Below are positions 3,581-55,289 of a DNA stretch of 64,000 nt, one piece after another. Under the pieces are notes generated by a model, which saw only the letters and a program-made list of their open reading frames with translations, was not told the DNA's origin and made no database searches. Every line of letters starts with the position of its first letter. Within the stretch, counting starts at the first letter, position 1. The stretch spans positions 66,220,681-66,284,680 of the forward strand of contig NC_134848.1 of NCBI RefSeq assembly GCF_965363235.1, written 5' to 3'. The stretch is from Mytilus galloprovincialis (Eukaryota > Mollusca > Bivalvia > Mytilida > Mytilidae). Position numbers and translations under genes: made by a program.

Positions 3581-3599
3581 TAACAATACCTAAGTACTA

Positions 3600-8662: not shown

Positions 8663-11600
8663 ATGGGTATAGTATATAATTAACACATGCATTTTAGGTG
8701 TTAAATCCTCATTATAAACACACGAAACTTAAATCTCATCGCACAACCGACTTTGGACATCTTGTTAAAAAAAAACCTACGGCTTCAATCATGTACCGTT
8801 GTGGTTATAAAGAACCAGACAGAAAATTTAGCCTTTTTCTTTAAATTCTTTTCCCTATCGTCAAAAAAAATTACTGTTAATTGTTTCAGTATATTAAAAA
8901 ACATTATCGTAATAACTCGACATGCTTAATTATGAAGTACATCCCATGTACTTTCCCGATATTTTGTGTTCATATTTGTCATTATAAAACCGAATTTGTA
9001 TTTGTATTTCCTTTGAATCCACGTATCGTCTGTCCCAAGAACCAATTATCATTATTTTTTTTTTATTAATTATGATAAAAGCGTGACCATCCCTGATTTT
9101 TGAAACATGCACTTCTTGATGTATTTTTTCTCTCAAGAGTTTCAATCTTAAGTAGATTTAATTCAAATCGTGATTTATGTGATAAAATTGGCAATTATTC
9201 AATTCTTAATTTACACTCAGACACACACTATGTGTTAAATATGGAAAACTTACATATCAAATTCAATAAATGACAGAATAGACAGGAAACTAATAACTAA
9301 AGTGTATTTTCTAAAGATCATAAAACTTGCAAGAAACATGCATCTTACAAAATGAGAGCAGATAGTTTCTTTATAAATATAGATAAATTATGCAATAACT
9401 GACAGTGACAAAATGACAGCATCTTCTGTATTTTTAGTACAGATGGATATGTTGTGTACTATTTCGGTATATATTTTTCTCCAAAATTGAGTAATTTCCG
9501 GTAGTAGTAATTAATGTTGTCAATTTCGTTCTTTTCAAATAAAATCAAACAGATTATATGCCGCTATTGTGATGACTTAAATCTAAAGTATTAGCTAAGT
9601 CATTTGCTATTAGTGTTTCATGATATTCACTATTTTATATTTATCATAAGGGATGCAATGGAAATAGCACTACGTTAACTACTATAATAATTGTTCTAGT
9701 GAAGAGCTTCATACACAGGGGTACATAGTTATAATAGGAATGTACAAAATAATTCCATCGAGGATAAGCAATTAATTTAAGAACTCAACATTTCAGACTC
9801 ATCTCAAGAAGAAAATCAGCACGGAGAAAGTAAAAAATATATGTTTGACAAAGAATATAATTGTGGAACGGATGCAAGTGAGGAAAATGACGATGATATA
9901 AACAAAACATCTGATTGGGTTTCACCAAAAACCAACAAGAAGAACTCATGTTGTTCTTGCATTAAAAAACAAAGATGGAACTGTTTGATTGTTTTCCTCG
10001 TTATTTCATTAAGTTCATTTTTAGTATCAATAGGATTCGTGATATACCTTGTGTTTCAATTCCAAGATTTGAGTTTAGAGTTTGCAGGTATGTAAAAATG
10101 TTTATTTAAATAATTAATATATATGTACTATAATATAATATTAGCCGTTTGGACAAGTTTGGTAAGCAAGTAATTCTTAAAAAGAAAAATACACAAAATT
10201 CCAAACTCCAGGTTTTAAGCTTACTATAAACCTCTGAACACAGGCACATTGTAATACCATAAATGGACAATCGATTATATTTTGTTTTAAGGAAAACTCG
10301 AATGAAAACGCTTTACTGTCACTTTCTTATTTCCATTTTACAGTATTGAGGAACAATTCTTTGCACAACAGATTGCAGATAAAAAAATCTGAAGAGGAAG
10401 TTGAAAGGTTATTTGTTGGACATGAAAAACATAGTGAACACATTAACAGCATGGATATTAGTAAGTTTAACATGTTTGTTGAGTAGAGGTCATAATTTCG
10501 CGTTTTTGGGGGGAGGGGTGAACACTTTTTTTTTTATATATATGTCACTTCCTGATAAAAGCGAATGTAACGTAGGTATAACTGAAGTTAACATTTCTTT
10601 TGTTTTAATTTGAAGTTGTTTATTTACTAGATACAGGAAGATGTGGTATGAGTGACAATATACACATCTATACTATTAAACGAGAAGACGTCATTTTGTG
10701 TGTCGCTTCTCTTTCTTCCACAATAAATCAAACATCATGCCTCTGTGTACTATAGGTAACATGCATAGTCGCATTTGTCATCCATTCTTACGATTATTCA
10801 GATTGAGTTATTATGGGAGAAAAACGACAAAAAAGGAGTCCGAATATGATTCCGTCGTCAGACTGACTTTTAGTCATAGATAAGACTTCCGGTTTGAAAC
10901 ATGCACAAATACAACCAATCGTATGATAGATAACACAAATGAAAAATAAATAAGCCAATCAGATCGTTCTCCATATCATGGTGTTTAGATCGTAAGGCCC
11001 ACAACTATTATACCTCCTTATAGAGGACAATTATTTTTCGCGTTTATCTACATGTAAACTACGATTAAACTACTTTACTATATAGTCTAAGAGACTCTCT
11101 GTATTCTGTCTACTGTTTTCTTTGAAATGTTTGCTATTTAATGGGTCATACCAGTTGCATATATATCAAAATAAATAAAACATGTGACACAAGTACAACC
11201 AATCGTATGATAGATAACAAAAATGAAAAAAATGAATAAGCCATTCAGAGCGTTCTCCATATCATGATGTTTAGATCACAAGAATCACAACTATAATACC
11301 TCCTTAGAGAGGACAATTATTTTTCGCGTTTATCTACATGTAAACTACGATTATACTACTTTAATATAAAGAGACTCTCTGTATTCTGTCAGGGACTTTC
11401 TATGTTAGTATAGAAAGTCCCTGATTCTGCCTACTGTTTTCTTTGAAATGTTTACTATTTAAGGGGTCATACCACTTTCATAAATAAGTAAAACGTGCTT
11501 AATTTCATCTAAAACTACCTCAACCAAAGACTTTAACATGAAGGGGGACAGACGGACGGACGGGCGACCGAACGAATGAACGCACGGATGCAGACTAGAA

Positions 11601-14600
11601 AACATAATGCCCATAAATATGGCAGCCAAATTTATTGTTGAAAGGGAAAATAGTGATTTGGCAAAAATGAAAGTAAGGTAGAGATTAGAGGAAGGCAGGA
11701 CCTTTTTGGGGGCGTCGGGATCGGGTGTTTTTTAAGCTCCTGATTTTGGGATTGATCCTTACGTGATCCGGGAATATATTTTTCGATTTCGGGATTTCGG
11801 GATACAAGATTCTTTAAATTCTGCATCTCGGGATTTCATGGTTTTAAGCCCAGGATTTCGGGATCAGGACCCCTCCGACAACCCCTCAAATTAGCCTTAG
11901 TCGGTCTTGGTCATTTATACAAGATTCATATCCTACCATTGGCATGTTAATAAGGCTTCCAAAAGAAAAAGCACTGATGGATTGTCCTAGAAGGATATTT
12001 TATTAGACTAATAATGGTTTATATATAAACAGTTACATTTATTTCATGTATGAAACGGTGCAATTTTTTAATTTGATTTCACTTTTACCAAAAGAAGCAT
12101 TATAGCAAAGGAGAAGTATAATTGTGGTCTGAGGCAGAAACACGAAAAAATTGAATTTAACAGAAAGGAAACAAATATCAGACTTTAGAAAAAGGGAGAG
12201 AGCTTTTCATACCTTTTATGAAATTCTCCATACATAATATCTTTGACAAAAAAATCATCCTACAATAGTTCACAAGATGTATATGCCCGCGATTTCGCGG
12301 GTGTGTTCTAGTTTTGTTGAAGCGTAAATCACTTGACACATGCTTGATATAATATGGTTAAACCCTTTCCACTCAGATATCAAAAATTCAAAATGTTTAA
12401 TTGCTGCTTTTAAGCACGCGTCATTAAAGAGTACAGACCACAAATATGTCTAAAAAAAAGTGTTGCTTATTTGGTGCTGGTCTTTAAAATTAAGTACCTT
12501 TCTAAAACAAAAGTTGTCTCTATTTCTTCTTTAACATTTGGTATAAGAACAACCGTTTTGTCAGTCCTTAAGCCAGGAACATGATATTTTCTTCTTTACT
12601 TTACATGTTTGTTTCTTTTGCTTAACTTTCTTTTGTTTGATTGATTAATAAAGGCAACAGTAGTATACTGCTGTTCAAAACTCGTAAATCGATGGAGAAA
12701 AAAATCCGAGTAAATATAAATGGAGAACAGCGACACAACATTAAAATGTAACACACACAGAAACAAACAAAGCATTAGACAAAATCCGATGATTTTAAAA
12801 CATTTTAAACGATTAAGGTGCAAGTTTCAGATCCTTTGTAATGTCTGAAAAATGGAGAAATATTTGATTTATAATATTTTAAATCACACTGAAAGTGCGT
12901 CCTACAATTACAGTGATTATTAAGGAATTTCATTAAAATATCCCCCTCCCCCCCCAAAAATGGAAAACATATTCTGCTTGTGCAGTTTGCAACAAACACA
13001 CGCGTACAAAGTAAAACATCGAATTACTCTTGAAATCTTAAAGCTTACGTACAAATTGAATTATTTCTTTTTATAGTGTTAAAAAATTATACAGATATTT
13101 TCAATGAAAACATTGGAAAACTTCAAGTGGATGTCAGTGACTTAACAAAAATGCATGAAAATCAGGTGAAAATACAGAGAGATATACAGAAACTGATAGA
13201 GACTAACAATAGAAATACCAGAATGAAGTTAAGAAAACTTGACACAAAAGATATTTTGGTCCAAAAACAAATTGATGAAATAGTTCGGACACAAAAGACC
13301 TTTCAGCAGAAGCTGTCCGATTTTTTAATGGCAGGTATGAAGAGAATCTTAGAAAACTTTTAAAATTACTATATTTAAAATTTCTTCCTTTGCATTATAA
13401 AATGATTCCCACTGTTGTTAAGTCGGAATATATTTTTGCTATGTTCGAGTTTTACAGTAGAGTTTAGTTGCCAACGATCTCATGTAGAACTTTCATAACT
13501 TTCAGAAACTTGTGATATTAACTGTAGAATGTATGAGAAGAAAGTATGTTGCAACTGATCCTTCCGTGTCTTTTAAAGTTATTTTAACAGTGCAAGATTT
13601 AAGATGCGAGAATATTTAAAACACTTGTTATGTTAAGCAAGTCACATGATAACGAATTGGACTTATTTCACGAACCACTTTAAATTGACATTTTTTTACC
13701 TGTCTTTATATTATATTTACTTTAATTTCAACATTGTCTACTGCGTTGTGTCTTTAAACGAAAAATGAGAAAAGTATACAGAACTCCGAGGAAAATTGAA
13801 AGCGGAATGTCCCTAATCAAACGGCAAAATCAAAAGCTCAATCACATCAAACGAATGGATAACAACTGTCATATTCCTCAGTTGGTACAGCCATTCTCAT
13901 ATGGTATGAAGAAAATAGTGGATTGAACCTGGTTTTAATACTAGCTAAACCTCTAATTTGTATGAGATGAGAGTCGCATCAAACTCCATTATATTGACAA
14001 CGATGCGTGAACAAAACAAACAAAAAAGAGTCGATTTTATGATACAGAGTTGAGATAGGAAACGGGGGTTGTGCCGTGAGAGAGACAAAACCCGACCAAA
14101 GAGCAGAAGAGGCAGAGACTTAATCCTCTCAATATACATCTTGTCAATGTGGAATAACCAAATACACAACAACACGCACAATAAAACTCTGTTTTAAGGA
14201 AGTCCCAGTCCGATGTTTGAATAGGTATCAGACAACACTAAGCAAAATGACAACGATCAACATCAGTTAATAACGGTTACAAACATGCCAGCTCCAGACC
14301 TCAATGACACTGACCGAAAGAATACGTCTTCATCATAGAAAAATCAAGCACAATCCCTTTCGTTAGGAGTTAATAATACCATCAAACATTATACGAGAAG
14401 AACTAGTATATATTTGTTTAGGGGCAAGCTGAAGGACGCCTCCGGGTGCGGGAATTTCTCGCTACATTGAAGACCTGTTGGTGACCTTCTGCTGTTGTTT
14501 ATTTCTATGGTCGGGTTGTTGTCTCTTTGGCACATTCCCCATTTCCATTCTCAATTTTGAGTATTCCAGCATACCTGTAAATTTTCACACTTGTTGTTCT

Positions 14601-16287
14601 CAACTTTTTTATAGTATTACTGGTTAAAGTTAAAAGAGACAGAAGATACAATAAGGTACCAGTAAAAAATCGCATAAAACTAACAACACCATTAAAAAGA
14701 ACGAAATACGATGATATTGTGCTTATTAGTTAATTGTTTTCTTTATTTCTTGGTCTTTGTATTATGTATTCGGGTTTTGTTTTCTGTAATTAGTTAAGAC
14801 TTCAGTTTTATCATGTATATCTTTTATATTCATTTGATAAAATTTACTGTTTGCATTAGCATAAATTGTTCTAAATAATAGGGATATTCTTATCACAAGT
14901 AGAAAACCCTAGCCGCGTTTGGCACAACCTTTTTCAACTTTTGATCCTCAGTGCTGTACAACTTTGTACTTTTTTTGACTTTCGAACTTTTATATCTGGG
15001 CGTCACTGGTAAGTCTTGCGTGGACGAGGCGCGTTTTTGGCGTATTGAATTTTAAACCTGATGCCTGTTGTTATCTAATATTCATGTGTTTCTTTGCATA
15101 ATACGTTCTCCTATTTTTTTGTATTGTTGTCCTCTTATATTATGTTGTCATTTTAATGTTATATTTAAATAAAGGCAACAGTAGTATACCGCTGTTCAAA
15201 ACTCATAAATCCATGGACAAAAAACAAAATCGGGATAACAAACTAAAACCGAGGGAAACGCATTAAATATAAGAGGAGAACAACGACATAACACTAAAAT
15301 GTAACACATATAGACAAAATCCCACGAGAATAACAAATATAACATATATATATAACATCAAAACCAAATACATGAATTTGGGATAGACAAGTACCGTGAC
15401 ACGTCTTATCGCAATGTGAATTTACACTCAAAAATAAGAGAAAACAAACGACACAACGTTATAATGTAATACACACAGAAACGAACTATAATATAACAAT
15501 GACCATATTCCTGACTTGGTACAGGGCATTTTTAAAGGAAAAAATGGTGGGTTGAACCTGGTTTTGTGGCATGCCAAACCTCGCACTTTTATTACATTGC
15601 CATTAAAGTGCGAGGTTTGGCAGGCCACAAAACCAGGTTCAACCCACAATTTTCTTCTTTAAAAATGTCCTGTACAATGTCAGGTAAATGGCCATTGTTA
15701 TATCATAGTTCGTTTCTGAGTGTGTAACATTTTTACGTTGTGTTTCCGTTGTGTCGTTTTTTTCTTTTATATTTTAGTATGAATTCACATTACTATAAGA
15801 CGTGTCATGGTACTTTTCTATCCCAAATTAATGTATTTGGTTTTGATGTTATATTTGTTATTCTCATCGAATTTTGTCTAATGCTTAGTCCGTTTCTGTG
15901 TGTGTTACATTTTAATGTTGTGTCGTTGTTCTCCTCTTATTTTTAATGTGTTTCCCTTAGTTTTGGTTTCTTACCCCGATTTTGTTTTTTGTCTATAGAT
16001 TTACGAGTTTTGAACAACGGTATACTGCTGTTGCCTTTATTTGGACCCTAAATCAAATAAATAAATTCCATTTATAAAACATTGTCCTTTTACTAAATGA
16101 AAAACACATTGTTTTTCAACTGTTAAATAAAATTGCACAAAAAGTCATAGTTTACAAATTGTTTATTTCAGGATCCAATGAACAAATAAATACCCAGAAA
16201 ACAAACCACAGTCAATGGATCTCCTACTCGTCAGGAATACACACATTGTTATTTTCTATGATTCTGTTTATTATCCTTTGCATGTAG
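8663..16287 (+). CDS. Type II membrane coiled-coil protein with C-terminal GPI-like signal, gene 1
   Basis: Coding exons by eye: 8663-8666, 9797-10087, 10344-10460, 13077-13334, 16172-16287, giving 261 residues. All junctions are GT/AG and all introns phase 1. Exon 1 contributes only ATGG; the start is inferred from conservation of CCAGAGATGG before the donor in gene 2 (a later start, 9841, is the alternative). Residues 1-64 form an acidic cytosolic tail ending in a Cys/basic cluster (CCSCIKKQRWNC, possible palmitoylation). Residues 65-88 are a hydrophobic helix with positive charges on the N-side, so N-in. Residues 100-220 are charged and heptad-like, contain no Cys, and carry NNS and NYT sequons. 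Residues 224-261 hold NHS, then a small-residue site (SSG, 243-245), then 13 hydrophobic residues to the end, as in GPI signals. No family match is recognised. The topology equals that of tetherin/BST2; function is unknown. Confidence 0.7.
10667..12312 (+). mobile_element. Non-autonomous Helitron in intron 3 of gene 1
   Basis: The left end begins TCTATACTATTAAACGAGAA after an A. The right end has a hairpin, CCCGCG-ATTT-CGCGGG (12286-12301), then a short spacer and terminal CTAGT (12308-12312), followed by T. These are the TC...hairpin...CTRRT ends and A/T target of Helitrons. No Rep/helicase frame is present. Inside are a ~280-bp direct duplication (10912-11490) and an AT/GGGATTTCGGGAT-rich part (11700-11880). 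Gene 2 intron 3 has AAGCGTAAATCACTTGA (about 24525), which in gene 1 resumes just after the element (12320). Gene 2 therefore gives an approximate empty site. Confidence 0.8.
10912..11490. repeat. Direct ~280-bp duplication inside the Helitron
   Basis: Two tandem copies start with ACAACCAATCGTATGATAGA (about 10912 and 11195) and run through the same ATTATTTTTCGCGTTTATC and CTGTTTTCTTTGAAATGTTT blocks. The second copy carries a small extra piece around 11391-11425. The duplication lies wholly within the Helitron. Confidence 0.7.
12640..12835. repeat. Relic of the AATAAAGGCAACAG fold-back family
   Basis: The sequence from TTAATAAAGGCAACAGTAGT onward matches one arm of the complete fold-back element at 15172-16049, including CTGCTGTTCAAAACTC and ACACACAGAAACAAAC. 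It is a single truncated arm in intron 3 of gene 1. Other relics of the same family lie at about 18780-18900 and 22290-22425. Confidence 0.65.
13757..14565. repeat. Nested mussel-type repeats in intron 4 of gene 1
   Basis: 13790-14010 carries an element with CCTAATCAAACGGCAAAATC, CTGTCATATTCCT...TTGGTACAG and GTGGATTGAACCTGGTTTTA. Related copies lie at about 23235-23480, 51090-51310, 54165-54420 and 55655-55905. 14400-14560 carries, in reverse, an element ending TGTCTCTTTGGCACATTCCC...CCATTTCCATTCTCAATTTT; further pieces lie at about 20440-20625, 36727-36775 and 47485-47535. No coding capacity is seen. Confidence 0.65.
14885..15060 (+). repeat. Element with GACGAGGCGCGTTTTTGGCGTA core, partial
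   Basis: Contains TATTCTTATCACAAGTAGAAAACCCTAGCC-type sequence, a TGGCACAAC...TTTTTCAACTTTTGATCCTCA section and GGGCGTCACTGGTAAGTCTTG, then GGCGTATTGAATTTTAAACC. It is a divergent copy of the family best preserved at 21405-21775 and 56460-56865. Confidence 0.6.
15172..16049. repeat. Complete ~880-bp fold-back element
   Basis: The ends are inverted: AAATAAAGGCAACAGTAGTA at the left and TACTGCTGTTGCCTTTATTT at the right. The arms stay complementary through TTCAAAACTC, AAAATGTAACACA, GAAACGAACTATAATATAAC and the inner AAACCTCGCACTTT...AAAGTGCGAGGTTT, meeting near 15597. Each arm is thus about 420 bases with almost no loop. There is no protein frame. It lies in intron 4 of gene 1; gene 2 lacks it at the equivalent place. 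Confidence 0.8.
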
Positions 16288-16336
16288 GCGAAAAATATGA
16301 TATCTATTTTTGTATCTTCATTAATGAAATGACTGC

Positions 16337-22100: not shown

Positions 22101-25100
22101 ATATTTCTTTGTTTTCGTTTACCGACATTGCAACATTTTATGAAAGTTCAACTCTTTCTATTTTATTCGACTGTCATACAAGGAGGAGGTTTTCCCACAA
22201 TTGTTTTCTTAAAATGTCCTGTTCGAAGTTAAGAATATGGAAGTTGTTATCAAATAGTCCGTCTTAATGTCTGTTTGTGTTTTAGAAGTTCAGTGTTTCT
22301 GATGTTCCGTTGTTTCCCTCTAATTGTTGATGTGTTTCCTCGCTTTTGGTTTGTGACCAGGATTTGTTTTCGCTCAACCGATTCATGACAATTGAACAGC
22401 GGTATACTACTGTTTTCCTTATTTAGCATTCCGTCATATCTACTAGTTGCATGATTGATTAGAAATATTCATAGAAAATTATGAATGCACGTATAGTCTA
22501 GTTCAAGAACAGATTTCTTTTATTTTAACAAAATCAGAATAAATTTCTAGATTTTTCCAATTATTACTTTTCATATACTGTTTGTCATGGGAATAGGGTA
22601 AACTGAAATACTCCAATAATCTTTCCTCCGAAGAGTCCATATTTAGACATACATTTACATAATTATAATGCGCATGTCTCAAATAAGACCATCGGTGAAT
22701 AACATAACAAATTATTTACAACAAAACATTTCAGAGGATCATGACGATGATATAGGCAACACATCTGATTGGGTCTCACAAAAATCCAAACAGCAAAAAT
22801 CATGTTGTTGTAGTAGATGGAAGTTAGTTATTATTTTCCTCGTCATATTAACAAGTTTATGTCTAGGATCCATAGGCTTTGGCATATACCTTATGCTACG
22901 ATTTCAAGATTTGAGTGTTGAGCTAGAGCGTGCAGGTATGTTCATTTAAAGAATGTATATACCTGAAATCAATATAATATAATATTAGCCCTTTGAATAA
23001 TTTTGATGTATGATTTAACGTTGTTTTCTGTGAGTTCATTGAAATTGAAATAACAATATTGTTTTTAAGCTCCGTCTGCACCAATAGGGGATTTAAAGAT
23101 TGCAAACAAACGTTTACTGGCTTCGCTAACGTGTTGCCTTTAAGCATTATTTGAGACAACGAAATCACCAATTGATGCCGTTAGAGCTTAAAATATAATA
23201 CAGTTATCTTTTAAATAACAAAAAAAAAAAACGAACGTCGTGGAAAATTCAAATAGGAGAGTCACTCGTCAAATAGCAAAATCGAAATCTTAATCACATC
23301 GAACCGAAAACAACTGTCATATTCCTGACTTGGTACATACATGCAGAACATGGTGGATTACACCTGGTTTTATAGAAGTTAAACCTCTCAATTATTTTAG
23401 AAGTTAAACCTCTCAATTATTTTAGAAGTTAAACCTCTCAATTATTTTAGAGTCGCATACAATTCCATTACATTGACAACAATATGTGAGCAAAACAAAC
23501 AGACATAATAGGTAAAAATGTAAAACAAATTGTGGGTACAGCACTCAACATAGTGTCGTGATCTTAATCACTATAAATACAAACCAGTATGTCAACAATG
23601 AAAAACAAAACGACATGTGGGCACTATATAGACAAAGCACATAAGCAGAATCGAAATAAAAGCCAAGCATATAAAAAATGACCATACCACTATAACACAA
23701 TAGCGGAATGTATAAATAACGAGCCACGCCAAAAGGACATTACCAAAAAATGGACAAAACAGTGAAGGATAAAATGTACAAGGACAAATAAAAAGAATAA
23801 AAAAAGAAGATGTGGTATGATTGCCAAAGAGACAACTGTCAACAAGAGACCAAAATCACACAGACATAAACACCTATAGGTAACCGTACGGCCTTCAACA
23901 ATGACGCTATATCACGTCAAGTAGATGATAAACCAGTCAGTGTCTAGAACCAATAGTTAAAATGCCATCATGTATTATCGGTGAGGCTGATACCGATTGT
24001 TTACCAACAAGGTCTTGATATCATCTGATGAACATCTTATAATAAACTATTACACATTTCATAAGTTTTGAAGTGTAATAAATGGAAGAAACCAGAAAGT
24101 AAATTTGTAGAAAAGCAAGTTCTTTTGAAATCAACCATATTTTTGAAGGCTTGATTTTCTTCGTGTATTTTGTTACATTCTCAATCTTATTAATTTTTTT
24201 AATTGAAAACGCGTACCGTACGCTTAATACTTTTCCTCTGTTTTTAACATTTTGCAGTATTGAGGAACAACTCCCTGCAAAACAGATTTCAGATAGAAAA
24301 ATCTGAAGAGGAAGTTGAAAGATTATTTGATGGACATGAAAAACATAATGACAAAATCAATAACATGACCATCAGTAAGTTTTACACGTTTTTGATTGGA
24401 GTTTACAATTTCTTACTTTTTCATTGGGGAGGAAAATGGGGTTTGCAATTAACGTGGGATTTCCTGATAATTGTAAATGTAACGTAGTGTAACTAACGTA
24501 AACATTTCTTACATCTTTCGTTTAAGCGTAAATCACTTGATATAATGCGGTCTAACCCTTTGCACCCAAATATCTTTTTTTTCTAAATAGTGCAAGATTT
24601 GGGTAATTAATAGCTACAAACTAGAATTTTGAAACTTGGTATACTATTAATGCTTCTTTGCAAAGTGTGTTCATCTAAGTGACAAAAGAAAAAAAAAACA
24701 AAGGTCCAAGAAGTGTGACCCGATCTGAAAATTATGTTCAATTCTTCCTGCTCTTCCTAACGGCTATCACGTGGTATCTCAAGAAATAATCAAATACAAA
24801 TCCGATTAAGATTGTTAACTTATTAATACCACAACCATTGTTTCAATAGATGTAGCTTGATAATTTTGCCCATCGAATTAGTAAATTTGCCGGATTAATT
24901 ATAACATGAGCATGAGGAAAGGGGGCCACATGTGGAGTAGGATCTGCATACCATTCCGGAGCACCTGAAATAACCCCCAGCTTCTAGTAGGATTCGTGTT
25001 GCTTGGTGTTAACTTTTCTATGTTGTGTTTTGTGTTTTATTATTTGTCTATTCGTCTTTTTCTTTTTTTAGCCATGACGTTGTCCAGTTTTTTTCGATCT

Positions 25101-33197: not shown

Positions 33198-33651
33198 TCG
33201 AAATGCGTTCACTGTATATTTCTCTGTCATATACAGTCACTGTCCCGATATCAATTATCCTCATGAAGTTTTAAATAGTAGTTGCCTAAACTATATTTAA
33301 TTATTCATGACGAACTCTTCAACGTGTCTTTCTTTCCAATATAAACAATGGCGCGTGGAACGACTCAGCTACACTTATTTCTGTTACAATTGTTGAAAAA
33401 AACATATTTCACTGGTTAATATGTTTGTTTAAAACCTATAATTCATTATGTTTTATGTTTAATGTTGATAATTTTATTTATACCCAAACAAATTCGTTCA
33501 ACATCGGATTGGTTTCATCAGATCAAATTTAATGTATTACAAGATAACTCCGCCAGATATGGTCCTCTTTTAAAGGGGGTTTTCCCCAATATTCAAATCT
33601 AATAAATAACAATAACACAATATTTTAGTTTTTTTCAAGATTGCTATATAA

Positions 33652-36721: not shown

Positions 36722-36724
36722 TAA

Positions 36725-37850: not shown

Positions 37851-37855
37851 ACTAG

Positions 37856-38733: not shown

Positions 38734-38814
38734 TCCACATCATCTATTTTTACTTTCACTTATTCAAAATTGTTTGTTAACGTATTTAATTTCAGTCTAC
38801 TACAGACAATCAAG

Positions 38815-41800
38815 ATGTATACAGGTAAGTTAGCAATAAGAATATTTACGAACAGATGATTTAAGGAATACCACATTAGACATGTGATCTAATTCGGGCT
38901 CTAATTCTTAGTGATTAGAAAATAATAATATATAATTGATATATATCCAAGAAAAATGGCGGAATTTTTAGTCGCAGATTCTTACGTAGATCTAATGTTA
39001 GATAACATGTAAAAAAAAAAACACTAAATAAAAATAAACAATGAATTAGTGTGTATATCTTATAATGTTGGTGTATGAGATAACACGGCTCCACCTTATT
39101 CAAGTTGTTGTTCTCTTTAATTGTTACTTTTTACGTAAGTTATCGGTGTAATACTTACTAAGGGTAGACGGGTATAGAGAATGGTTAACACCTAAGGGGC
39201 CTCTGTTTGGATAGGCGGGATGTTGAAATACATAGGCACGTCGGGTCGGAACGGAGTGTGTTAAATCAGGAACAGACATACCGTTCCCATGTTAAATATG
39301 AGGTGCAGGGTGGGACACGTGCATATATATATATATGCGTTTTACATGTTTTAAAAACTCTTTCTACAATTGAGGAATCTGTCGATGGCATATTATTAAA
39401 ATGTATCATTACTTAAAATGATAGTTGATGTTTTTTTCTTAAATGATAACAACTGAGTTGTATCATGCAATATAGATTAATTTACTGGTTGTTATTTTCT
39501 AATAATCGCTAGGGTGTAAAAGAAAAAAAAAATAATTGAGGTCAACGCTTTTATATAATATTGTTTGATCATACATGCTTCACTCATAATTTCTAACAGT
39601 GAGAAATATAATTAATCTATTGAACTGACTACACCGAGGACTACACAACTCAACAGTGTAATCAATCAAACATGTATGGAAAAATTACTTTCACTTTCAT
39701 TTTCCCTATTGGATTCCTGATGTCTATGTCTAAATATCTATTTTCAGAAAATTAAAATTGACAATTGATTTATTCTACTTCATTAAAGTATTTGTTTACT
39801 TATATAGTTGACATTTACCCAGATCTCGTTTACTTTACATATATTCATTTGTATTTTATGGAACTACAATTTTACTGCATTTAAATACAAACTGAATTAT
39901 ACATGTTATAAGCATTGTGACACAGTGGCGGATCCAGAAGGGGGGGGGGGGGGGTCCGGGGGTTGGAACCCCCCTTTTTTTTTGGCCGATCAATGCATTT
40001 GAATGGGGACATATAGTTGGAACCCCCCTTTATCCTGGGTTGGGAACCCTCCCTTTTTAAAATGGCTGGATCCGCCCCTGTGACATATGATTATTCATTT
40101 ATATAATATCCTACTTTTTACATATCCACCTTTACAACTATATATATAATATGAAACATAGCAGTAACAATCGTTAAAAAAATATGTAAGTCATGTCTTA
40201 CAAATAAATTTAAAAAAAAACATGTGTGTTTAATTGTCTCATTAAGATTTAAAGGGTAGAGTGGAATATTTTGCCCAACATTGTTTTACATGTTTTAGCT
40301 AAGTATATAAATACTGATAATTCGGCACATTTGGCTGTCACTAAAACCCTATAGTTCAACATTTTAATTTAAATGCGGCAGAACAAATAGTGATGGTAGT
40401 AAAACCAGGAAAACATTATATTTAATTTGCCTCACATTGTATCAAATATAGTATGTAAGAAAGAGTTGCCTACGAATATAAATGCATTCGAAACGTAAAC
40501 AAGATTTCGACAGGAAATTAAAAGAAATAAATAGAATGTACTTAAACACATAGATATATGTACTTTTATCAAGAGATGTGTTAAGTACTCCGTCAACATA
40601 TAGACTTCGATCTTTTTAGTCAAAGATATTTGTAGGAAGTGTTAGTACTGATTCATGTAGTTCTTAACGAAGATCGAGATGAAGTTATAATTATGATGCC
40701 TCGCCGCATTCGTCTTGAAAAGGCATGAAATATTTGCCACTGGACTTTAAAAACAAACAACCACCGTGTTAAACTAGATTCACATGGCTTATAAAAGAAC
40801 ATAGAAATAAAACACAGAGTGGACGTGGCCGGGTACTTGTATAACTCAACATACATGAAAAGCACTTTACGTACAGATCTAAGAGTACTGACAGTTGCTT
40901 ACAGCTAGTTCAAAGCCACTCACAACTATTTAGAAAATCATGAATCTGAATCTGTAAGTCTGTACCAAACTGATCTGGGGTTTGTCTGACCGGAAAGGAA
41001 ATTTGATGTTTTTCTATATAATTAACTAAAAAAACTACATTGCTCTCTGACCGAATGATTTTTATATTGGTGTCACGTTGGCGTCGTCGTCTGCGTCGTC
41101 GTCGTCGTCGTCGTCCAAATACTTTTAGTTTTCGCACTCTAACTTTAGTAAAAGGGAATAGAAATCAATGAAATTTTAACACAAGGTTTATGACCACAAA
41201 CGGAAGGTTGGGATTGATTTTGGGAGTTTTGGTCCCAACATTTTAGGAATTAGGGGCCAAAAAGGGCCCAAATAAGCATTTTCTTGGTTTTCGCACTATA
41301 ACTTTAGTTTAAGTAAATAGAAATCTATGAAATTTTGACACAAGGTTTATGACCACAAAAGGGAAGTTGGGATTGATTTTGGGAGTTCTAGTTCAAACAG
41401 TTTAGGAATTCGGGGCCAAAAAGGGCCCAAATAAGCATTATTCTTGGTTTTCGCACAATAACTTTAGTATTAGTAAATAGAAATCAATGAAATTTAAACA
41501 CAAGGTTTATGATCACAAAAGGAAGGTTGGGATTGATTTTGGCAGTTGAGGTCTGAACAGTTTAGGAATTAGGGGCCAAAAAGGGGCCCAAGTAAGCATT
41601 ATTCTTTGTTTTCGCATCATAACTTTAGTATAAGTAAATAGAAATCTATGAAATTTAAACACAAGGTTTATGATCACTAAAGGAAGGTTGGGTTTGATTT
41701 TGGGAGTCTTGGTCCCAACAGTTTAGGAATAAGGGGCAAAATTGAACTTTGTTTGATTTCATCAAAAATAGAATAATTGGGGTTCTTTGATATGCCGAAT

Positions 41801-44800
41801 CTAACTGTGTATGTAGATTCTTAATTTTTGGTCCCATTTTCAAAATTGGTTTACATTAAGGTCCAAAGGGTCCAAAATTAAACTTAGTTTGATTTTAACA
41901 AAAATTGAATCCTTGGGGTTCTTTGATATGCTGAATCTAAAAATGTACTTCGATTTTTGATTATTGGCCCAGTTTTCAAGTTGGTCCAAATCGGGGTCCA
42001 AAATTAAACTTTGTTTGATTTCATCAAAAATAGAATAATTGGGGTTCTTTGATATGCCAAATCTAACTGTGTATGTAGATTCTTAATTTTTAGTCCCGTT
42101 TTCAAATTGGTCTACATTAAAGTCCAAAGGGTCCAAAATTAAACTAAGTTTGATTTTAACAAAAAATTAATTCTTGGGCTTTTTTGATATGCTGAATCTA
42201 AACATGTACTTAGATTTTTGATTATGGGCCCAGTTTTCAAGTTGGTTCAAATCAGGATCCAAAATTATTATATTAAGTATTCTGCAATAGCAAGAAATTT
42301 TCAATTGCGCAGTATTCAGCAATAGCAAGAAATCTTCAATTGCACAGTATTGTGCAAAAGCAAGAAATTTTCAATTGCACAGTATTGCGCAATAGCAAGA
42401 AATCTTCAATTGCACAGTGACAGTATTGTGCAATAGCAAATATTTTCAATTGCACAGTATTGCACAATAGCAAGAAATATCTAATTGCACAATATTGTGC
42501 AATAGCAAGAAATTTTGAATTGATTGGAGTTAGCTTTCTTTGTCCAGAATAGTAGTTGAATCAACTTAAATCATTGTTTTATACAATATACAATGTATAT
42601 TCACTTTTACTACCAACTGATAAATTAAAACAATCTTTACCATTCAGTGATAACAAGCACCTTTTGTTACATTTTAATATTTTATGATGTATTTAGATGA
42701 GTAGTTATTGTTGCAAAGTCCATTAGAAATTTGAATTGAGATCAGTTTTGGAAAAAGGGAAAGGGGATGTGAAAAAAAATGGGGGGGGGGGGGGGGGGGG
42801 GGTGGGGGAGGTTAAATTTTTCTCATTTCAGATTTCATAAATAAAAAAGAAAATTTCTTCAAACATTTTTTTGAGAGGATTAATATTCAACAGCATAGTG
42901 AATTGCTCAAAGGCAAAACAAAATATTTTAAGTTCATTAGACTACATTCATTCTGTGTTCGAAACCTATGCTGTGTCAACTATTTAATCACAATCCAAAT
43001 TTAGAGTTGAATCCAGCTTGAATGTTGTGTCCATACTTGCCCCAACCGTTCAGGGTTCAACCTCTGCGGTCGTATAAAGCTGCGCCCTGCCTGGTTGTAT
43101 ATATTTTCTTTGGCGCAATGTTTTAATTCTCAATGTTGACATTTTAGACAAAGACGACAATGAGTATCCAGATCGCTCTGTCAAGTTACTTAACGAGAAG
43201 AGAAGTGAATATGATGTTGACATGAAATCTAATGGCGGGAAACAGACGAAAAATCCGCAGCGAAAAATATGTACATGTGTTTGGATTAAAAAAAGGAAAT
43301 GGAAAGTTTTTTTCGGTATCATAGCAGCGTGTAGTATTGGCTCCGTTGCATTGTCATTTTACAAAATGGCGAATTTGTCCCTTGATGAGAAAGGTACGTC
43401 AGAAAAAATAGTTTTTTACCAATTCTAAGTACAATGTATTGACTTTAGGTTTAAGCATAGAGCTGTGTCGGATAGAAATCGACCTTGTGTCCCTACATAT
43501 ATATTAATTTATACATCTCGTAACCTACTTCGGGTTGAAAAAGTTTCGATGGAAAGTGTGTTAGAAGGTATAACTGTTTAAACAAAATCTACAACATGTA
43601 CAAAACAGACGAACATTCATCTTTAATTTCGTATGTGACTTACATGACTTAATCCACTTCGTCCCAAGGGGGACATAGGGCGACTACAGTTCTGTAGTCG
43701 TTTCTGTAACGTAATATTTTTTACAAGTTAGGGGTGTTGGCCCTAAGCTAAACCTTCTACGTGAAGGGTCGGGTTGTTCTGTAGGGGGTTTCCATCCCTT
43801 AGACGATTGCTGTTGCTAACGAGTTCCATCTACCCGGATTTTCTATTTGGATTAACTTCCATAGCCTTTGACTATTCCCAAGTCACCCACAAGGCAGTGG
43901 GGCATTTAACCCATAGCTGGGGCAAGGTTGATTAGAGCCAGGGCGTGTCCACTCGCCGGTGGGCCTGCACTCTGCATCTCTAAGGCCCTTGCTGCTCTGA
44001 GATCCCTTGCAAATTAGCCTGAGATACTAGACCCCAGTATCCGTGTGTTACCGCGAGGAGGCATTGCAAGAGTCTTGATGGTGTAGAGGCTTTGTACCAG
44101 CAGGAGAGGCTGACGCACTCGGCTCTCTTTTCGTCCACAGAGTGGACTAGCTGTATGTGAGTGTATCAAAATTAATTCTTATAAATGTCTATGTATATGG
44201 GGCACTTGCGTGAGGTATACGTAAATTTCTATCCGATGCAGCTCAATCAATTATGTCAATCTGAAAGTCATTCCTCATCTATATGAATGTTTAATAAGTT
44301 CTACAAAGACCTCCCCCCCTCCGCAAAATGGATGGGGTTAAATTTTTATGTTAGCTCAATTGTCAAATAAAGTATGATCAGATATTTGGTTGAGGAAAGA
44401 GCCCCGTCCATAATTGATTGACTTGTTGATGTTAAACGCCACTTTCAACACTATTGTTATACTTCTCCGCGGTCAGTTTTTATTGATGTAGGTAGCCGGT
44501 GTCCTAGTGTATACTAAATTTTGCATCGGTAATGAAATTTGAAAAAAGATATTGTAAATCATGACGATTTTCTGATTATTTTTAAAATGTTTTTTAAATT
44601 ATATTATGGTTTTATATATGTAGTTTACATAACATGAATTTATGTGGTTAGTCTTTATTATTGTATATATGGTAAAAATATATTACCCAACCTGTATATT
44701 TTCAGAGATATCCAGTATGAAAAAAGACATATTAGATATGAAACAACAGAGGAAAAAATTTGAAAATGACATTAAACTATTGTATGCTGGACATTACGAT

Positions 44801-45115
44801 CAAAATGACAACTTGGACACATTAGAAACAGGTACGTTACATATCTAGAGTGTTTAGGGAGCAACCATTTAACTTCAAGGGGACGGGTTAGTTTTAGAGT
44901 GTCCTAGAGTGTTTAGGGAGCAACCATTTAACTTCAAGGGGACGGGTTAGTTTATGTTTTATGTTTCTGTCATTTTTTTTTTTTTTTCATATGCTTGACG
45001 TTGAAGAATGTGTATTTTGGATCAAATTGGGGATAGGAATATTTTGTTTTAGGAAAAAAACATACCCCTTTCCTTTTTGAAATTAAATGGTTGTTCCCTT
45101 ACTGATGTTCAGGGG

Positions 45116-45153
<38 letters not shown>

Positions 45154-47104
45154 TTGAAATATAGAAAGTATAATGCAATACTGAATGATTGTAGCTTGCT
45201 CAACGTCCAAAGAAAAATATGTCAATGAGGCTGTAAATATTTAATTAGTTTCACTTTTATTATTGGATTTATATCTAAATATATTTTCTGAAAATTTATG
45301 AAGTTGACAATTGATTTATACTTGATAATTTATTTCGTTGACCTTAAACCATATCATCCTTTATTTGTATTAAGTTGTTTGCAAGTAATAAAACTACGTT
45401 TTTACTACATTTTAATATTCATTTAGTGTTTTAGAATGAAATATGATCGGCAACTCTATGAACTTGTATTTAACTTTACAACTGTGAATATGAAATTTTG
45501 TTTTAAGTAACTGTTAGAAAATATAAAATCGTAAGGTAATATAATTAATAGACAATGTATGCATTCAACAGTCCCTTTTAATAAACGATCGAATATTTGC
45601 TCAATGTGTTAACTATCTATCTGAGGAACATCGCCAATTTTCATTTGTCATGATAGTCGACCATTAAAAACCTTAGGGTATAGATTTGAGACAACAACAA
45701 ATATTACCATAAACTATTATTTCATATTTTCGTGACGGGGAATTTTATAACGATATGGACATTTTCCCATTTGTGAATGCTGAACGTTTCCCAATAACTG
45801 CTTGCCTCCATTTTATTAGAACTTATTTTTATATAAATGGAAGGTAATTTATATATATTTCTTTGCAGTGCTTCAGAATACAACTGTGACCTTTAATGAG
45901 CGCATCAACAATCTTACAACAGAGCTTAACACATTAGCTAAAAAATACGAACGTCAAGGAAGACTCCAAATGGAAATGCAAAAACAGATCGATGCAATGG
46001 GAACGAAAAATAGAAAGAAGTTTGAAGAATTCAACCAAAAGATGGTTGTTATGATGCAAAAAATAAATGATATGATTGCATCACAAGAAGCTCTGAAAAA
46101 TGAATCAAGAGACACTCAAAGTAGTTTACGTAGGGAAACACAAAACGCAGTGGATAAGATACGAAATGATTTCAGAGCTGCACAACACAAGTTAGAATCT
46201 GACTATAGAGAAACTCGGAACTCACTCAATGAACTTAAAGCAAGCCAGCAATCTCTACGCAGTATGTTACTTGGGAAACGTAAGTTAAATTATTAAAAAA
46301 CACAATCTTGTTATGGAACGACCATTTTACTTTAAAAACAGGGGGTGTATGTTTTATTTTTTAAAAAATATTCTGATCATTAATTTGATGTAAAAAATTT
46401 ATTTAGTTAAGCTTCAGGTAATCGCTTGAATGCAACACACTAATAATATGACGAACCACAAAAGTCTTTACATTGTCCGAGACACTTGAAGTTACTAGAA
46501 GTTTTTGTCCGAGACACTCGAAGTTGCTAGAAGTTTTATATGAATCATATTGACTTCCGATTTCCATAGGTTTGAGTGGTAAAAAACGAGAGTGGACACA
46601 ACATTTTCAAATAAAAGTATGATACTTCAAACTAATTGTTCGGTTAACCATTCTGTCACACGTCAGACTAAATATTGAATGTAAGGATATGTGGTACGTG
46701 TGATTGCTCCTCATCATATACCAAATAACTAAGATGTTAGCAACTGCAGGTCCCTATAAGGCCGTAAACCATGAGCAAAACGCCTACCAAATAGTCAGCT
46801 ATAAAACACGTGACAAAATGTGAAATATTGCAGTTGTGAATCTTTAGGGGTTCAAACATTGGACATCACTTACATTGTCTACAATATAAATCGGATAAGA
46901 TCTGTCATTTTTACTAAAATCACTTTCAGTTTTGAACATATGTAATCATTCATAGCAGTATTCATAAATGTTTATATTTTATTTACTTGTTTAGTTTCAG
47001 ATCTGAAGAAGCAAGTTCAAACCAAACCAAATTCCGGTCCGACTACTCGAAGCTCTGTTGGATTAATTTTAGTTTTACTGTTATTCATCCGTTTATCTTT
47101 TTGA
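38815..47104 (+). CDS. Type II membrane coiled-coil protein with C-terminal GPI-like signal, gene 3
   Basis: Coding exons by eye: 38815-38824, 43148-43393, 44706-44831, 45869-46279, 46995-47104, giving 300 residues. All introns are phase 1 with strong donors (GTAAGT, GTACGT). Residues 1-56 form a charged tail with KICTCVWIKKRKWK, 57-75 the membrane helix, and 87-264 a long Lys/Glu/Gln-rich coiled coil without Cys, with NTT, NLT and NES sequons. Residues 265-300 are a linker (QTKPNSGPTTRSS) and a hydrophobic end VGLILVLLLFIRLSF, a good GPI-type signal with NSG as possible attachment site. Exon 4 is 411 bases against 258 and 216 in genes 1 and 2, so the stalk is much longer. The exon 5 acceptor is ambiguous by six bases (46995 or 47001), both in frame. 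With gene 4 it forms a second subfamily. Introns are filled with repeats. A plausible poly(A) signal lies at 47658. Confidence 0.75.
39923..40080. repeat. MITE with CAGTGGCGGATCCAG ends
   Basis: Ends CAGTGGCGGATCCAG and CTGGATCCGCCCCTG are inverted and flanked by TGACA (39918-39922, 40081-40085). The inside has inverted GGGTTGGAACCCCCCTTT-like repeats and a G-run. The ends are of a type common in animal MITEs. The 5-base flank repeat does not fit the 8 bases usual for hAT, so the superfamily is open. Confidence 0.7.
41045..42530. repeat. Compound tandem repeat in gene 3 intron 1
   Basis: Opens with a GTC/CGT microsatellite (41080-41116). Then come four ~165-base units starting TTTTCGCAC--TAACTTTAGT and ending GGGGCCAAAAAGGGCCCAAA (about 41119-41740), two or more ~240-base units with GGGTTCTTTGATATGC (41745-42260), and about eight short units of AATAGCAAGAAAT-TTCAATTGCACAGTATTG (42280-42520). 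Similar arrays are familiar from bivalve genomes. Regular spacing might suggest CRISPR, but the units are diverged and eukaryotic. Confidence 0.75.
43460..44244. mobile_element. GC-rich element with 20-bp inverted ends in gene 3 intron 2
   Basis: GAGCTGTGTCGGATAGAAAT at the left and ATTTCTATCCGATGCAGCTC at the right are inverted repeats bounding ~785 bases that are much richer in G and C than the surroundings (for example CCAGGGCGTGTCCACTCGCC). No long frame and no target duplication are apparent. It is probably a non-autonomous transposon; I do not recognise its family. Confidence 0.55.
44410..44512 (-). mobile_element. SINE 3'-domain fragment
   Basis: On the minus strand it reads AGTATAACAATAGTGTTGAA, AGTGGCGTTTAACATCAACA and AGTCAATCAATT, the conserved 3' end of mollusc SINEs, here 5'-truncated. 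Same class as the nearly complete SINE at 27283-27635. It lies in intron 2 of gene 3. Confidence 0.6.
44846..45150. repeat. MITE with partial tandem copy and (AT)n
   Basis: 44912-45101 has inverted ends TTTAGGGAGCAACCATTTAA and TTAAATGGTTGTTCCCTTA. Its first 50 bases are also present in tandem at 44846-44895. An (AT)n microsatellite follows (45118-45150). The same family appears at 50400-50620 and, as a scrap, at about 46310. It lies in intron 3 of gene 3. Confidence 0.65.
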
Positions 47105-47124
47105 TTGGTTCTTAATTCACCGGG

Positions 47125-47345
47125 CGTTTTAGAAAAGCGGCTCCTGATGAACGTTTCTGCACCCTGTGCAACGACGGAACTGTCGAAGATGAGAAACACT
47201 TCTTACTATACTGTAAAGCTTTCAATAATTTGAGTCACATGCCATTTGAATCAGTGAACATTGATATTTATAACATCAATGATAGTACATTTGCAAATTT
47301 GGTGACATGCATTTCACCAAAGACAAACAGCCAAATAATGGAATT
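47125..47345 (+). mobile_element. LINE C-terminal fragment in gene 3 3' flank
   Basis: The + frame reads ERFCTLCNDGTVEDEKHFLL followed by YC: the CX2C...HX4C zinc-like motif found after the reverse transcriptase of many animal LINEs. It continues to MEFIFL and a stop. Only this C-terminal piece remains. It lies 20-240 bases after the gene 3 stop codon, so it would be part of the gene 3 3' UTR if the AATAAA at 47658 is used. Confidence 0.6.
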
Positions 47346-47484
47346 TATTTTTCTGTAAAAGAGAAGAAGTAACAATTTCACATTAATTTTGCTTATTGAA
47401 AATATGAACATTAAGTTTAAGATGACTTATAGGTCCAATTGAAGGATGTAAAAGGTGTAATTTAAAATAATCAATAATCAAAAT

Positions 47485-49770: not shown

Positions 49771-49799
49771 CAAGAACAACTAGTATAAAAATAAAATAA

Positions 49800-52140: not shown

Positions 52141-52778
52141 TTTGGTCTCACTCTGCAACTAATATTAAATATGAATAAAGGTAAGTTCTTTAGAATATAT
52201 TCAAATTTGTCGATTGAATAATTTCGTTCTGAAAACACATAATTTAGATATATACTAGGTTGTGACTAGCAAAAAAGTTATTAAAAGTATATTTGAGAAT
52301 GATACTTTGGACGCAAATGGATACTTCTATAATCGGGGATTCCTAACTTGAAAATATTTATAGAATAACTAAGATAACGAAGAATTCAACGCCTATTGTT
52401 GTATGACGTCAGAGAAGTGAAATAACAACGTTTTTTTTACACGAGGAAATAAATTTATTCACTGCAACCAATGTAATAAACGAATCTAATAATACAAGAA
52501 ACAACCAAGTGTCAGACACAAATTGTTCTTACGTATATGTGTCATATAATACAACCCTATAGTCACATGATCGCCTCATTCGAGGTATTATTTTTTTTTC
52601 TATTTAAGTAACTATTTTAATCCCTTTCCTAAATTATGCAATATTTGAATCATAAACCTTTAAACACAATTAAACATAGACAACAAACGCATCTGCCGAC
52701 AAGCAAAAATTCTTCGACTTTGATAATGATTTTGTCAAGTTCAACATAAATAAACGAAATAGTACAATTTATATCTTT

Positions 52779-52980
52779 GCTGTGGATTCATTTATTTTCG
52801 TGGGTATCAATTTTCGTAGATTCAGTAAACATTTCATTTTCGTGGATATTTTATTTCGTGGTTTTGTCAAAGTCTGCATACAAGCCTATATAACATTTGT
52901 AATTATAATATTATAAACATTTGAATTCGTGGTTCGCCTTCACCCACGATATCCAACGAATAACAATGATTCCACAGTAT
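52779..52980. repeat. MITE with TGCTGTGGATTCATT ends
   Basis: The left end TGCTGTGGATTCATTTATTT is inverted to the right end AACAATGATTCCACAGTA. The inside repeats TTTCGTGG and TTCGTGGTT words, the pattern of a short MITE common in bivalves. It lies in intron 1 of gene 4. Confidence 0.6.
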
Positions 52981-53359
52981 TTAATGTTGTGTCACACGTC
53001 TCTATGTTGGCATTATATATACAGCTAAAGACAACAATTTCCATACAGATAGCTCTGAAAAATTCCTTAACGAGGATTCAGCCGACGTGAAAGTGGATTT
53101 AACGTCACACGATGAAGAAAAAAGGAAGCACAGCAGCAAAGTACATGTTCTGTGTATAGAAGAAACAAATGTCCATGTTCCGTTAGTATTTTAATAGTAT
53201 GTAGTATCGGCATTGTTGTTGGTTTAACCTACAAACTTAGTGGTCTGTCTCACGACAACAAAGGTACGTCTATAATGCTGGTATTTATGCAGTAAGAAAT
53301 TTCAATATTTAATCGCCCCGTGTATAGAGAAGTTGTGGTTAACTTGAATAGAGCATTGT

Positions 53360-53560
53360 ACTTAGGATTTTCTTATCCCAGGAATAGATATCCTTAGCCA
53401 TATTTGGCACAACTGTTTGGAATTTTCATTCCTCAATGCTCTTCAACTTTGTACTTGTTTGGCTTTTTAACTATTTTGATATGAGCGTCACTGGTGAGTC
53501 TTATTTAGACGGAACGCGCGTCTGGCGTATTAAATTGTAATCCTGGTACCTTGATGAACA
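53360..53560. repeat. GACGGAACGCGCGTCTGGCGTA element
   Basis: Runs from TTTTCTTATCCCAGGAATAG to AATCCTGGTACCTTGATGAA with GAGCGTCACTGGTGAGTCTT inside; a truncated copy of the family at 21405-21775. It lies in intron 2 of gene 4. Confidence 0.65.
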
Positions 53561-54164
53561 TTTTACCATGTAGATATAGAACGAGATTTATATACAATAA
53601 CGAATCAAAGGCATACTGAGTGATATTGCTACTTAACTGCATCTACAAATTTTACCAAATTGATGAGAAATGCATTTCCTTGTTTAGGACTTTCTTATCG
53701 AAATGTGATCGACTGTTCTGCTTTATATCAATGGAGCAATGAGAGAAACGATCATGGTATATTACACTATGGTAGTTTCTTAAATATGATTTTATAATTA
53801 TTGTGAAGAAAAACATAATTTGAACGACAAATCTTTGTTTTACATGTATCATTAAATTTATTTTATATCTTTGTATTATTTTAGACATATCCAGTATGAA
53901 AAAGGGCATATTGCAGACCAAAGTTCAAAGTAAAAAATTCGAACATGATATAACATTGTTGTTTTTTGGTCAGAGCCGCCAAAACAAAGATTTAGACAAA
54001 GCGGAAACAAGTATGTAAAATATCAATTACTACAGTACATACAATTCATAACAAGTGGTATTCAATTTTTGTTTTTCAATCCTAGATATACTTGATATAA
54101 GTGATCAAATATTAAAACAGAACTTTGTCATCATAGACAACTCAATGATGGTAAAAGACTTACT

Positions 54165-54420
54165 GGAAAAAAGTAAAATCACAAAAATACTGAATTCGGA
54201 GGAAAATTCAAAAAAGAAAGTCCCTAATCAAATGACAAGATCAAATGATAAAACACATTAAAAGAATGGACAACAAATGACTTGGTACAGGCATTTTCAT
54301 AAGGTAGAAAATGGTTGATTAAACCTGGTTTTATAGCGCTAAACCTCTTACGTGTATGACAGTCACATCACATTTTGTTATATTTACAACGATGCCTGAA
54401 CAAAACAAACATAATAGGTA
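54165..54420. repeat. AAGTAAAATCACAAAAATACTGAA element
   Basis: Starts AAAGTAAAATCACAAAAATA, continues CCTAATCAAATGACAAGATC, TGACTTGGTACAGGCATTTT and TAAACCTGGTTTTATAGCGC. It is nearly the same as 55655-55905. It lies between exon 3 and the exon 4 remnant of gene 4, so it may mark where the coiled-coil exon was lost. Confidence 0.65.
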
Positions 54421-55289
54421 AAATTGTCAAAATATGGGTACAGCAGTCATCACTGTGTTACAATCTTAAAACAAACAAATATTTCACAAAAAAGTAAACA
54501 AGTATGCTACAGTTGTGAATCAACTTTAACATCATACGCTTTTACTTAAAGAAGCTACCTTTTTCAAATGAACTGTAGTGATATTTGCCATGTTATACCT
54601 ATTCTTTCTTTGATAATTGACTGTTTTATCTTCAATCTTTGAGACCAAAGCGGTTTGTTTTTAAATTAGTTCAATATTAGGTTTTTAATATAATGTTTGT
54701 GCTGATAAGAATTTCAACAGAGCGGGTCAAGACTCACAGAACGAACTAAGAGCAAACCATCAAAATTTACTTGATAAAAGTGAGTTTTTAAAAACAGATT
54801 TCTTAAAAACTTTTACAGTTTTTACTGTATTTTTCTATTGTAACTTGAGAAGTGACAATTATCCAGTAATAAAATGAAAATTGTTTAAAGGATACATATT
54901 TTAAAGCTAAGTAGTCAACAACGATGCAGACTTTTTTCTGAGAAACATGCATTTCCATTTTCCATGCTATTAAAAAAGCTAAAAAAGACGTACTAATTGC
55001 AAGACCATAAGTGTTTACATTCTGTGGTTTTGAGGGTACATGTAAATCATAAGTAATAAAATATGACATTGTACATGTTGTATGCTATACATTTTCTATA
55101 TTACAACCTGATAACACTAACTTATTGATATATGAGTAAGTAGGAAGATACCAAAGAGATATTGCGACTTACATATATACAATAAGAAGTAATGCTCACT
55201 TATGCTAAACCTTGGGACGGACGATAGAACGGAAACAAGTAAAACGATATTCTCTCGGTATTTTGTCTAGGGGAATATATAAATAAAAC

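Follow-up and report, generated by a model that had tools for sequence, protein, structure and literature searches.

An orphan, tandemly amplified gene family in Mytilus galloprovincialis with a predicted tetherin-like build

Here we describe a gene family of the mussel Mytilus galloprovincialis that is real, has no relatives that we could detect, and has a tetherin-like build. At the level of sequence, its genes are open, follow a common splice plan and evolve under purifying selection, and they encode a hydrophobic N-terminal segment followed by an ectodomain free of cysteine; a helix, a coiled coil and a C-terminal GPI signal are predicted. We reject its membership in the tetherin family and regard it as an orphan, tandemly amplified family with a rare build. 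The genes lie in a window of 64,000 nucleotides, the whole stretch of DNA analysed (C11:66220681-66284680, on contig NC_134848.1), and genome searches covered the 1.38 Gb assembly in 331 contigs.

Four copies follow one another on the + strand of the window, in the order A1 (8418-16287), A2 (22735-33197), B (38815-47104) and C (52171-54779, broken). All share one gene plan; two are A-type, one is B and one is the broken C. This exon reading, in which three copies have open terminal exons, bears out the first-pass annotation, which had claimed four + strand copies, three whole and one broken. The models are predictions from DNA, built on open frames, splice sites and homology, and inside the A and B models the exon joins are in phase 1. 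The features are as follows, where U1 to U4 denote the tandem units of B described below.

8418-8427, + strand: tentative mini-exon 1 of A1 (MNT+G), donor CAG/GTAGTT, placed by likeness to the B and C mini-exons, with no second copy as confirmation
9797-10087, + strand: A1 exon 2, predicted cytosolic tail, CCSC-basic cluster and TM helix
10344-10460, + strand: A1 exon 3, start of the stalk
13077-13334, + strand: A1 exon 4, helical stalk (helix predicted by AlphaFold2)
16172-16287, + strand: A1 exon 5, GPI-like C-terminus ending in ...SSGIHTLLFSMILFIILCM and the stop
22735-22935, + strand: A2 exon 2, predicted tail, CCC-basic cluster and TM helix
24258-24374, + strand: A2 exon 3
25636-25851, + strand: A2 exon 4, in frame and 42 nt shorter than that of A1
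27664-32895, + strand: retroelement of ~5.2 kb in the last intron of A2, with inverted ends and RVT_1
33082-33197, + strand: A2 exon 5, with a dispersed repeat from about 33153-33169 onward
38796-38824, + strand: B mini-exon, acceptor at its 5' edge, coding part 38815-38824 (MYT+G); with the 19 nt that precede it, this part is present in 4/4 units
43148-43393, + strand: B exon 2, predicted acidic tail, CTC-basic cluster and TM helix
44706-44831, + strand: B exon 3, start of the stalk
45869-46279, + strand: B exon 4, long, coiled-coil-like stalk (heptads; helix predicted by AlphaFold2)
46995-47104, + strand: B exon 5, GPI-like C-terminus ...KPN[SA]GP.TRSSVGLI.VLLL..., found by reading and tblastn
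52171-52180, + strand: relic of the C mini-exon (ATGAATAAAG followed by GTAAGT), with like sequence in U2 and U3
53025-53263, + strand: C exon 2, starting at 53025 or 53031, with a frame break between tail and TM
53885-54010, + strand: C exon 3
54719-54779, + strand: remnant of C exon 4, 3' end alone

The B gene recurs along the chromosome. Genome search placed its exon 4 at four tandem sites on C11, from U1 in the window to U4, spaced by 105, 114 and 106 kb. The mini-exon, exons 2-5 and the stop are all present in U1-U4, the splice sites are kept, and the spliced frame is open in 4/4 units (300, 300, 300 and 301 aa). The mini-exon (ATGTATACAG at 38815-38824, followed by the donor GTAAGT) is identical in all four and is the likely start of B. 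Since an acceptor lies 19 nt upstream of the start codon (seen in U1 and U4), an upstream 5' non-coding exon is likely. Exons 1-4 of U1 align without gaps to those of each other unit; exon 5 is gapped against U4 only, whose last residues differ, and intron 3 carries large indels between units. A DNA search with exon 5, which skips very common words, returned the four family copies only. Within the first coding intron of B, tandem arrays of about 160-, 130- and 35-nt units lie at window 41093-42522. A Cys-containing frame at window 47116-47355, transposon-like by eye, lies within about 10 nt after the B stop in U1; similar sequence follows B in U2-U4, and the frame has no Pfam match.

The first-pass annotation had set exon 1 of A1 at 8663 (ATGG/GTATAG); we place it instead, tentatively, at the mini-exon 8418-8427, which is closer in likeness to those of B and C. 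An exon 1 for A2 was sought and no convincing candidate was found. The exon-2 frame of A2 is open upstream and holds in-frame ATGs, so A2 may start there. B conforms to the five-exon plan proposed earlier, probably with one more non-coding exon at its 5' end; A2 is less secure than had been claimed. The element at 27664-32895 in the last A2 intron has inverted ends of 137 nt that complement each other perfectly, and long frames that overlap. It matches RVT_1 (E 2.9e-20) and, just short of the cut-off, a tyrosine recombinase; we take this build to be of DIRS type. A DNA search with the last exon of A2 gave two near-full copies, in U2 and in U3 (the latter with a broken frame), and 37 further places that match the 3' part only, among 40 scored of 967 candidates. 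These 3'-part matches begin at window 33153-33169 and the homology between A1 and A2 stops at 33169, so the last ~8 of the 13 hydrophobic residues of A2, together with its stop, lie in this dispersed repeat (33153-33260), whose sequence is hydrophobic there by chance and would give A2, if expressed, a repeat-borne C-terminus. The same kind of search for dispersed copies of the 3' part of A1 exon 5, with very common words skipped, found none.

C survives as relics. Exon 2 has a broken frame in two units, U1 and U2, and a stop interrupts it in U3. Of exon 4, U1 lacks the greater part, and the U2 and U3 copies are broken. No C copy in U4 appears among the matches listed. A distant relative, U5, lies at C11:74.59 Mb, with exons 2-4 open and an exon 4 that is 41% identical. 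A scan for a terminal exon of U5 found none, so U5 may be incomplete.

Both A and B are maintained by purifying selection. U4 is the most divergent B unit, and comparing it with U1-U3 gave dS of 0.22-0.25 and dN of 0.075-0.084; omega was 0.36, 0.38 and 0.30 against U1, U2 and U3, respectively (Fisher p 1.5e-5, 4.2e-5 and 2.1e-7). Between A1 and A2, dS was 0.43 and dN 0.17, for an omega of 0.39 (p 1.7e-5), or 0.36 once the last ten shared codons were dropped. Among the close B units the ratio ran from 0.48 to 0.86 on 15-39 changes, too few to judge; the pair U1 and U2 stands at 0.86, and its exon 4 alone at 1.15, on few changes. These values mark A and B as protein-coding genes under constraint, now or until recently.

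To describe the predicted proteins we used seven models: B in U1-U4, A1, A2 lacking exon 1, and U5 lacking both exon 1 and a terminal exon. By hydropathy, 7/7 have a single N-terminal TM-like segment, in line with the N-terminal tail and signal-anchor helix with a basic/Cys cluster that had been read at first pass. Basic residues in the 15 positions before and after this segment number 6/2 in B_U1, 5/3 in B_U2, 6/2 in B_U3, 3/3 in B_U4, 5/1 in A1, 3/3 in A2 and 1/3 in U5, a balance that favours N-in for 4/7 models, is level for two (B_U4 and A2) and is opposite for U5. From the TM to the candidate omega site there is no cysteine in any of the six models with a terminal exon, and the readable part of U5 has none past its TM; every cysteine falls in the tail, within the TM or in the C-terminal peptide that would be removed. 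The Cys-free ectodomain, already named as a difference from tetherin, is thus upheld, as is a glycosylatable stalk, with N-glycosylation sequons in every stalk read.

The C-terminus is the part on which a GPI anchor would depend. All six models with a terminal exon have a hydrophobic end, with 19-residue hydropathy windows peaking at 1.75-2.28, and in 6/6 copies a run of 13-18 hydrophobic residues, at most 4 residues from the stop, follows a small-residue triplet and a spacer. This agrees with the short hydrophobic C-terminus after small residues that the first reading had described. We then applied a home-made GPI rule that calls for small residues at omega and omega+2, a short spacer and a hydrophobic run whose end lies no more than 5 residues from the stop. 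By this rule, which is post hoc (set with the tails in view) and is not a trained predictor, 6/6 family copies with a terminal exon pass vs 19/1663 other ORF ends, some of which recur in duplicated units. In total 25/1669 ORF ends (at least 40 aa, same DNA) pass, the family's own 6 included, and 6-38 of 2000 shuffled tails do so. The candidate site of B, N-[SA]-G, is kept in 4/4 units, and the last residues vary yet stay hydrophobic; an Arg lies near the C-terminal end of the B tails in U1 and U3. The C-terminal tails of A1 and A2 carry weight because they are homologous to each other in register. When the window was scanned for hydrophobic terminal exons, five candidates turned up on the + strand, those of A1 and A2 among them, and six on the - strand, two of which have a common stop; B exon 5, which came from reading and tblastn, failed the scan filter. 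With chance candidates on both strands and B exon 5 missed, a hydrophobic terminal exon found by scan means little in itself.

Between the two ends lies a predicted helical rod. On a home-made heptad score, 0/200 shuffles reach the mean of B (each of 4/4 units) or of U5, whereas heptads are weak in A1 (1/200 shuffles reach the mean and 56/200 the maximum) and in A2 (8/200 and 82/200, respectively). Structure prediction, which the first-pass annotation had proposed, gave one long helix for exon 4 of both genes: AlphaFold2 models a single helix over residues 2-135 of 136 in B (pLDDT 93.7) and over residues 2-84 of 85 in A1 (pLDDT 95.7), from exon 4 alone with the three window rows as alignment, a lone helix being a common output for charged sequences. 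The coiled-coil stalk claimed for the whole family is hence clear by heptads in B (4/4) and weaker by that measure in A1 and A2, with a helix nonetheless predicted for A1 exon 4. The B stalk spans ~195 residues from TM to candidate omega site, and stalks across the family run to about 135-195.

Searches for relatives, which might have placed the proteins in a known unrelated family, did not do so. A Pfam scan of A1, A2 and B_U1 gave a best E of 0.0056 and no family at the curated cut-off. A PDB search gave best E values of 0.31 (B_U1), 0.67 (A1) and 0.057 (7-row family profile), and of 365 pattern matches between viral contigs and the exon 4 alignment, 0 were confirmed as relatives. The BST2 profile (PF16716) is absent among the families up to E 10 for A1, A2 and B_U1 (3/7 models); the first-pass annotation had claimed no sequence homology to tetherin. 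Run against the genome, it gave four matches of 18.6-20.5 bits, under the cut-off of 27, and none in the cluster. We rejected these as a sign of tetherin homology: all four are under cut-off, and a single minisatellite holds both the first and the fourth. That long minisatellite (L029, C11:14.32 Mb) has open frames of MEYCHDEVRHQEGS repeats that weakly ring the BST2 profile, a false-positive trap. Among the papers listed in literature searches, judged by titles and abstract openings, none describes an invertebrate or bivalve tetherin; subscription papers were mostly outside reach, so a report of one may exist.

The likeness to tetherin (BST2/CD317) is one of build. The predicted order of parts is that of tetherin: a cytosolic tail, a type II TM, a helical ectodomain and, here as a candidate signal, a C-terminal GPI. 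Unlike tetherin, which uses three ectodomain cysteines (PMC3715405), the mussel family has no sequence match, has no ectodomain Cys and is arranged in tandem; the ~195-residue stalk of B is a further difference. We reject tetherin membership because neither a sequence match (in A1, A2 and B_U1 or, at this cluster, in the genome scan) nor ectodomain cysteines were found. A second point of comparison is TMCC(aT), a tetherin-like vertebrate neighbour gene that likewise joins a TM to a coiled coil; its versions from turtle and alligator restrict HIV-1 release with no need for an added GPI signal. It differs from the mussel family in lineage and in that no GPI signal is reported for it (PMC10617486). 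The tetherin gene itself is placed there between CILP2 and PLVAP (PMC10617486).

The most plausible working for these proteins, to which we give slightly less than an even chance, is that of double-anchored type II rods that tether enveloped particles at the cell surface, be they virions or secreted vesicles. The acidic N-terminal tail would lie in the cytosol, and the signal-anchor helix, directly preceded by Cys and basic residues, would cross the membrane. The Cys-free helical stalk, ~135-195 residues long and bearing sequons, would pair non-covalently with a second chain, and the C-terminal hydrophobic peptide would be swapped for a GPI lipid. Since a membrane-inserted end would then sit at each tip, the dimer could bridge two membranes, or have one end caught in a budding particle and the other in the cell. 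Tetherin dimers insert one pair of anchors in the particle while the second pair stays in the cell, and an artificial protein that resembles tetherin in configuration, yet has no sequence homology to it, is reported to do the work of tetherin (PMC3715405). Tethering is mechanistically sound because, on that account, a like configuration suffices. Tetherin is also described as tying exosomes, for which its GPI anchor is needed (PMC5033606).

By the same analogy, the tethering reading has two weak points: the GPI anchor is unproven, and the ectodomain lacks disulfides, which stabilise the tetherin dimer. A longer coil, as in B, could offset the missing disulfides. Of the membrane-bridging family proposed at first pass, constrained genes with a predicted double-anchor build stand, and bridging is sound by analogy with tetherin; we infer tethering itself, together with dimerisation, surface location and GPI anchoring.

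Other readings of the same anatomy have to be weighed against tethering. It would also fit GPI/TM-anchored surface rods for cell-cell or gamete adhesion, or haemocyte spacers, where duplication would serve dosage or recognition diversity; purifying selection, the modest divergence between units and the sequons in each stalk read are consistent with them. Adhesion proteins usually bear a recognition domain, however, and here a helix alone lies between the anchors with no recognition domain detected, and we consider such a role unlikely, if a serious contender. A further reading leaves the C-terminal stretch uncleaved in the membrane; the protein would then form a hairpin with two TM segments, or serve an internal membrane as scaffold or spacer in the manner of CLIMP-63 or PLVAP. 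Hydropathy alone does not separate a GPI signal from a short TM (windows of 1.75-2.28), and type II coiled-coil membrane spacers do exist: PLVAP and CLIMP-63 are type II coiled-coil rods, extracellular or luminal. To our knowledge these two have no C-terminal hydrophobic signal, whereas the mussel family has one in 6/6 copies with a terminal exon, and the form of that signal in all six, a 13-18-residue run at or within 4 residues of the stop after a small triplet and spacer, argues for cleavage. An uncleaved C-terminus has, in our view, a chance well below even.

Two further explanations fare worse. The loci might be decaying duplicates without a working protein, as the broken C in U1, U2 and U3 and the state of A2 (an insertion in its last intron, a partly repeat-derived tail, no exon 1 found) would suggest; but in 4/4 units B is open and its splice sites are intact, its omega is well below 1 where dS is about 0.2, and A1 and A2 are constrained too, which makes general decay very improbable. 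A true tetherin ortholog, kept since before vertebrates, would account for the identical order of parts, and vertebrate tetherins are likewise low in sequence homology, having been found by position and predicted structure (PMC10617486). Against this, the BST2 model is unmatched by the three proteins scanned, its four genome matches are sub-threshold and outside the cluster, and the ectodomain has no Cys; we find orthology scarcely credible.

Whether the tethering of particles would extend to defence is a separate matter, and we hold antiviral use to be unlikely, without dismissing it. In its specific form, this would be an independently evolved mollusc restriction of tetherin type, in which a tandem, double-anchored coiled-coil family, linked to GIMAP-type genes, holds budding enveloped viruses at the cell surface without disulfide-locked dimers; we regard that proposal as distinctly unlikely. 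Tetherin is a leading case of a protein that acts against viruses through its shape rather than its sequence, and an unrelated invertebrate family of like build would test repeated invention of the tetherin shape. Bivalves suffer herpesvirus losses, and if the family is antiviral they gain a candidate release-blocking factor. Should it have no such role, a TM-rod-GPI family beyond vertebrates would still be an unusual membrane-bridging protein.

The genomic setting offers circumstantial support for a defence role through linkage to GIMAP. At about C11:64.1-65.98 Mb, upstream of the cluster, lie 26 of the 150 AIG1/GIMAP matches listed (214 candidates); the matches are partly broken or partial and do not amount to a gene count. 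Among those listed, the dense AIG1 array (<2 Mb) ends 0.25 Mb before A1, and one AIG1/GIMAP-type match ends 4.3 kb before U5 exon 2. In a post hoc comparison confined to C11, about 0.6% of positions are as near a listed AIG1 match as U5 is, and 11.5% are as near as the cluster. The distance from cluster to AIG1 is thus not unusual for C11, and that of U5 is, which is suggestive only. Gastropods and bivalves carry expanded sets of AIG genes, and in a snail such genes respond to immune challenge (PMC7053062).

We also looked at upstream motifs. In U1, U3 and U4, the 1 kb that precedes the B mini-exon holds no vertebrate-type ISRE, kB or GAS motif; mollusc motifs may differ, and the promoter may be farther upstream. 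Upstream of A1 there is no ISRE or kB, and there are 2 GAS-like sites vs 0.56 expected. Near the start of the window, at 227-3603 on the - strand, broken gag-pol-like frames, with zinc-knuckle, RT and integrase-like parts recognised by eye, mark an LTR-type retroelement.
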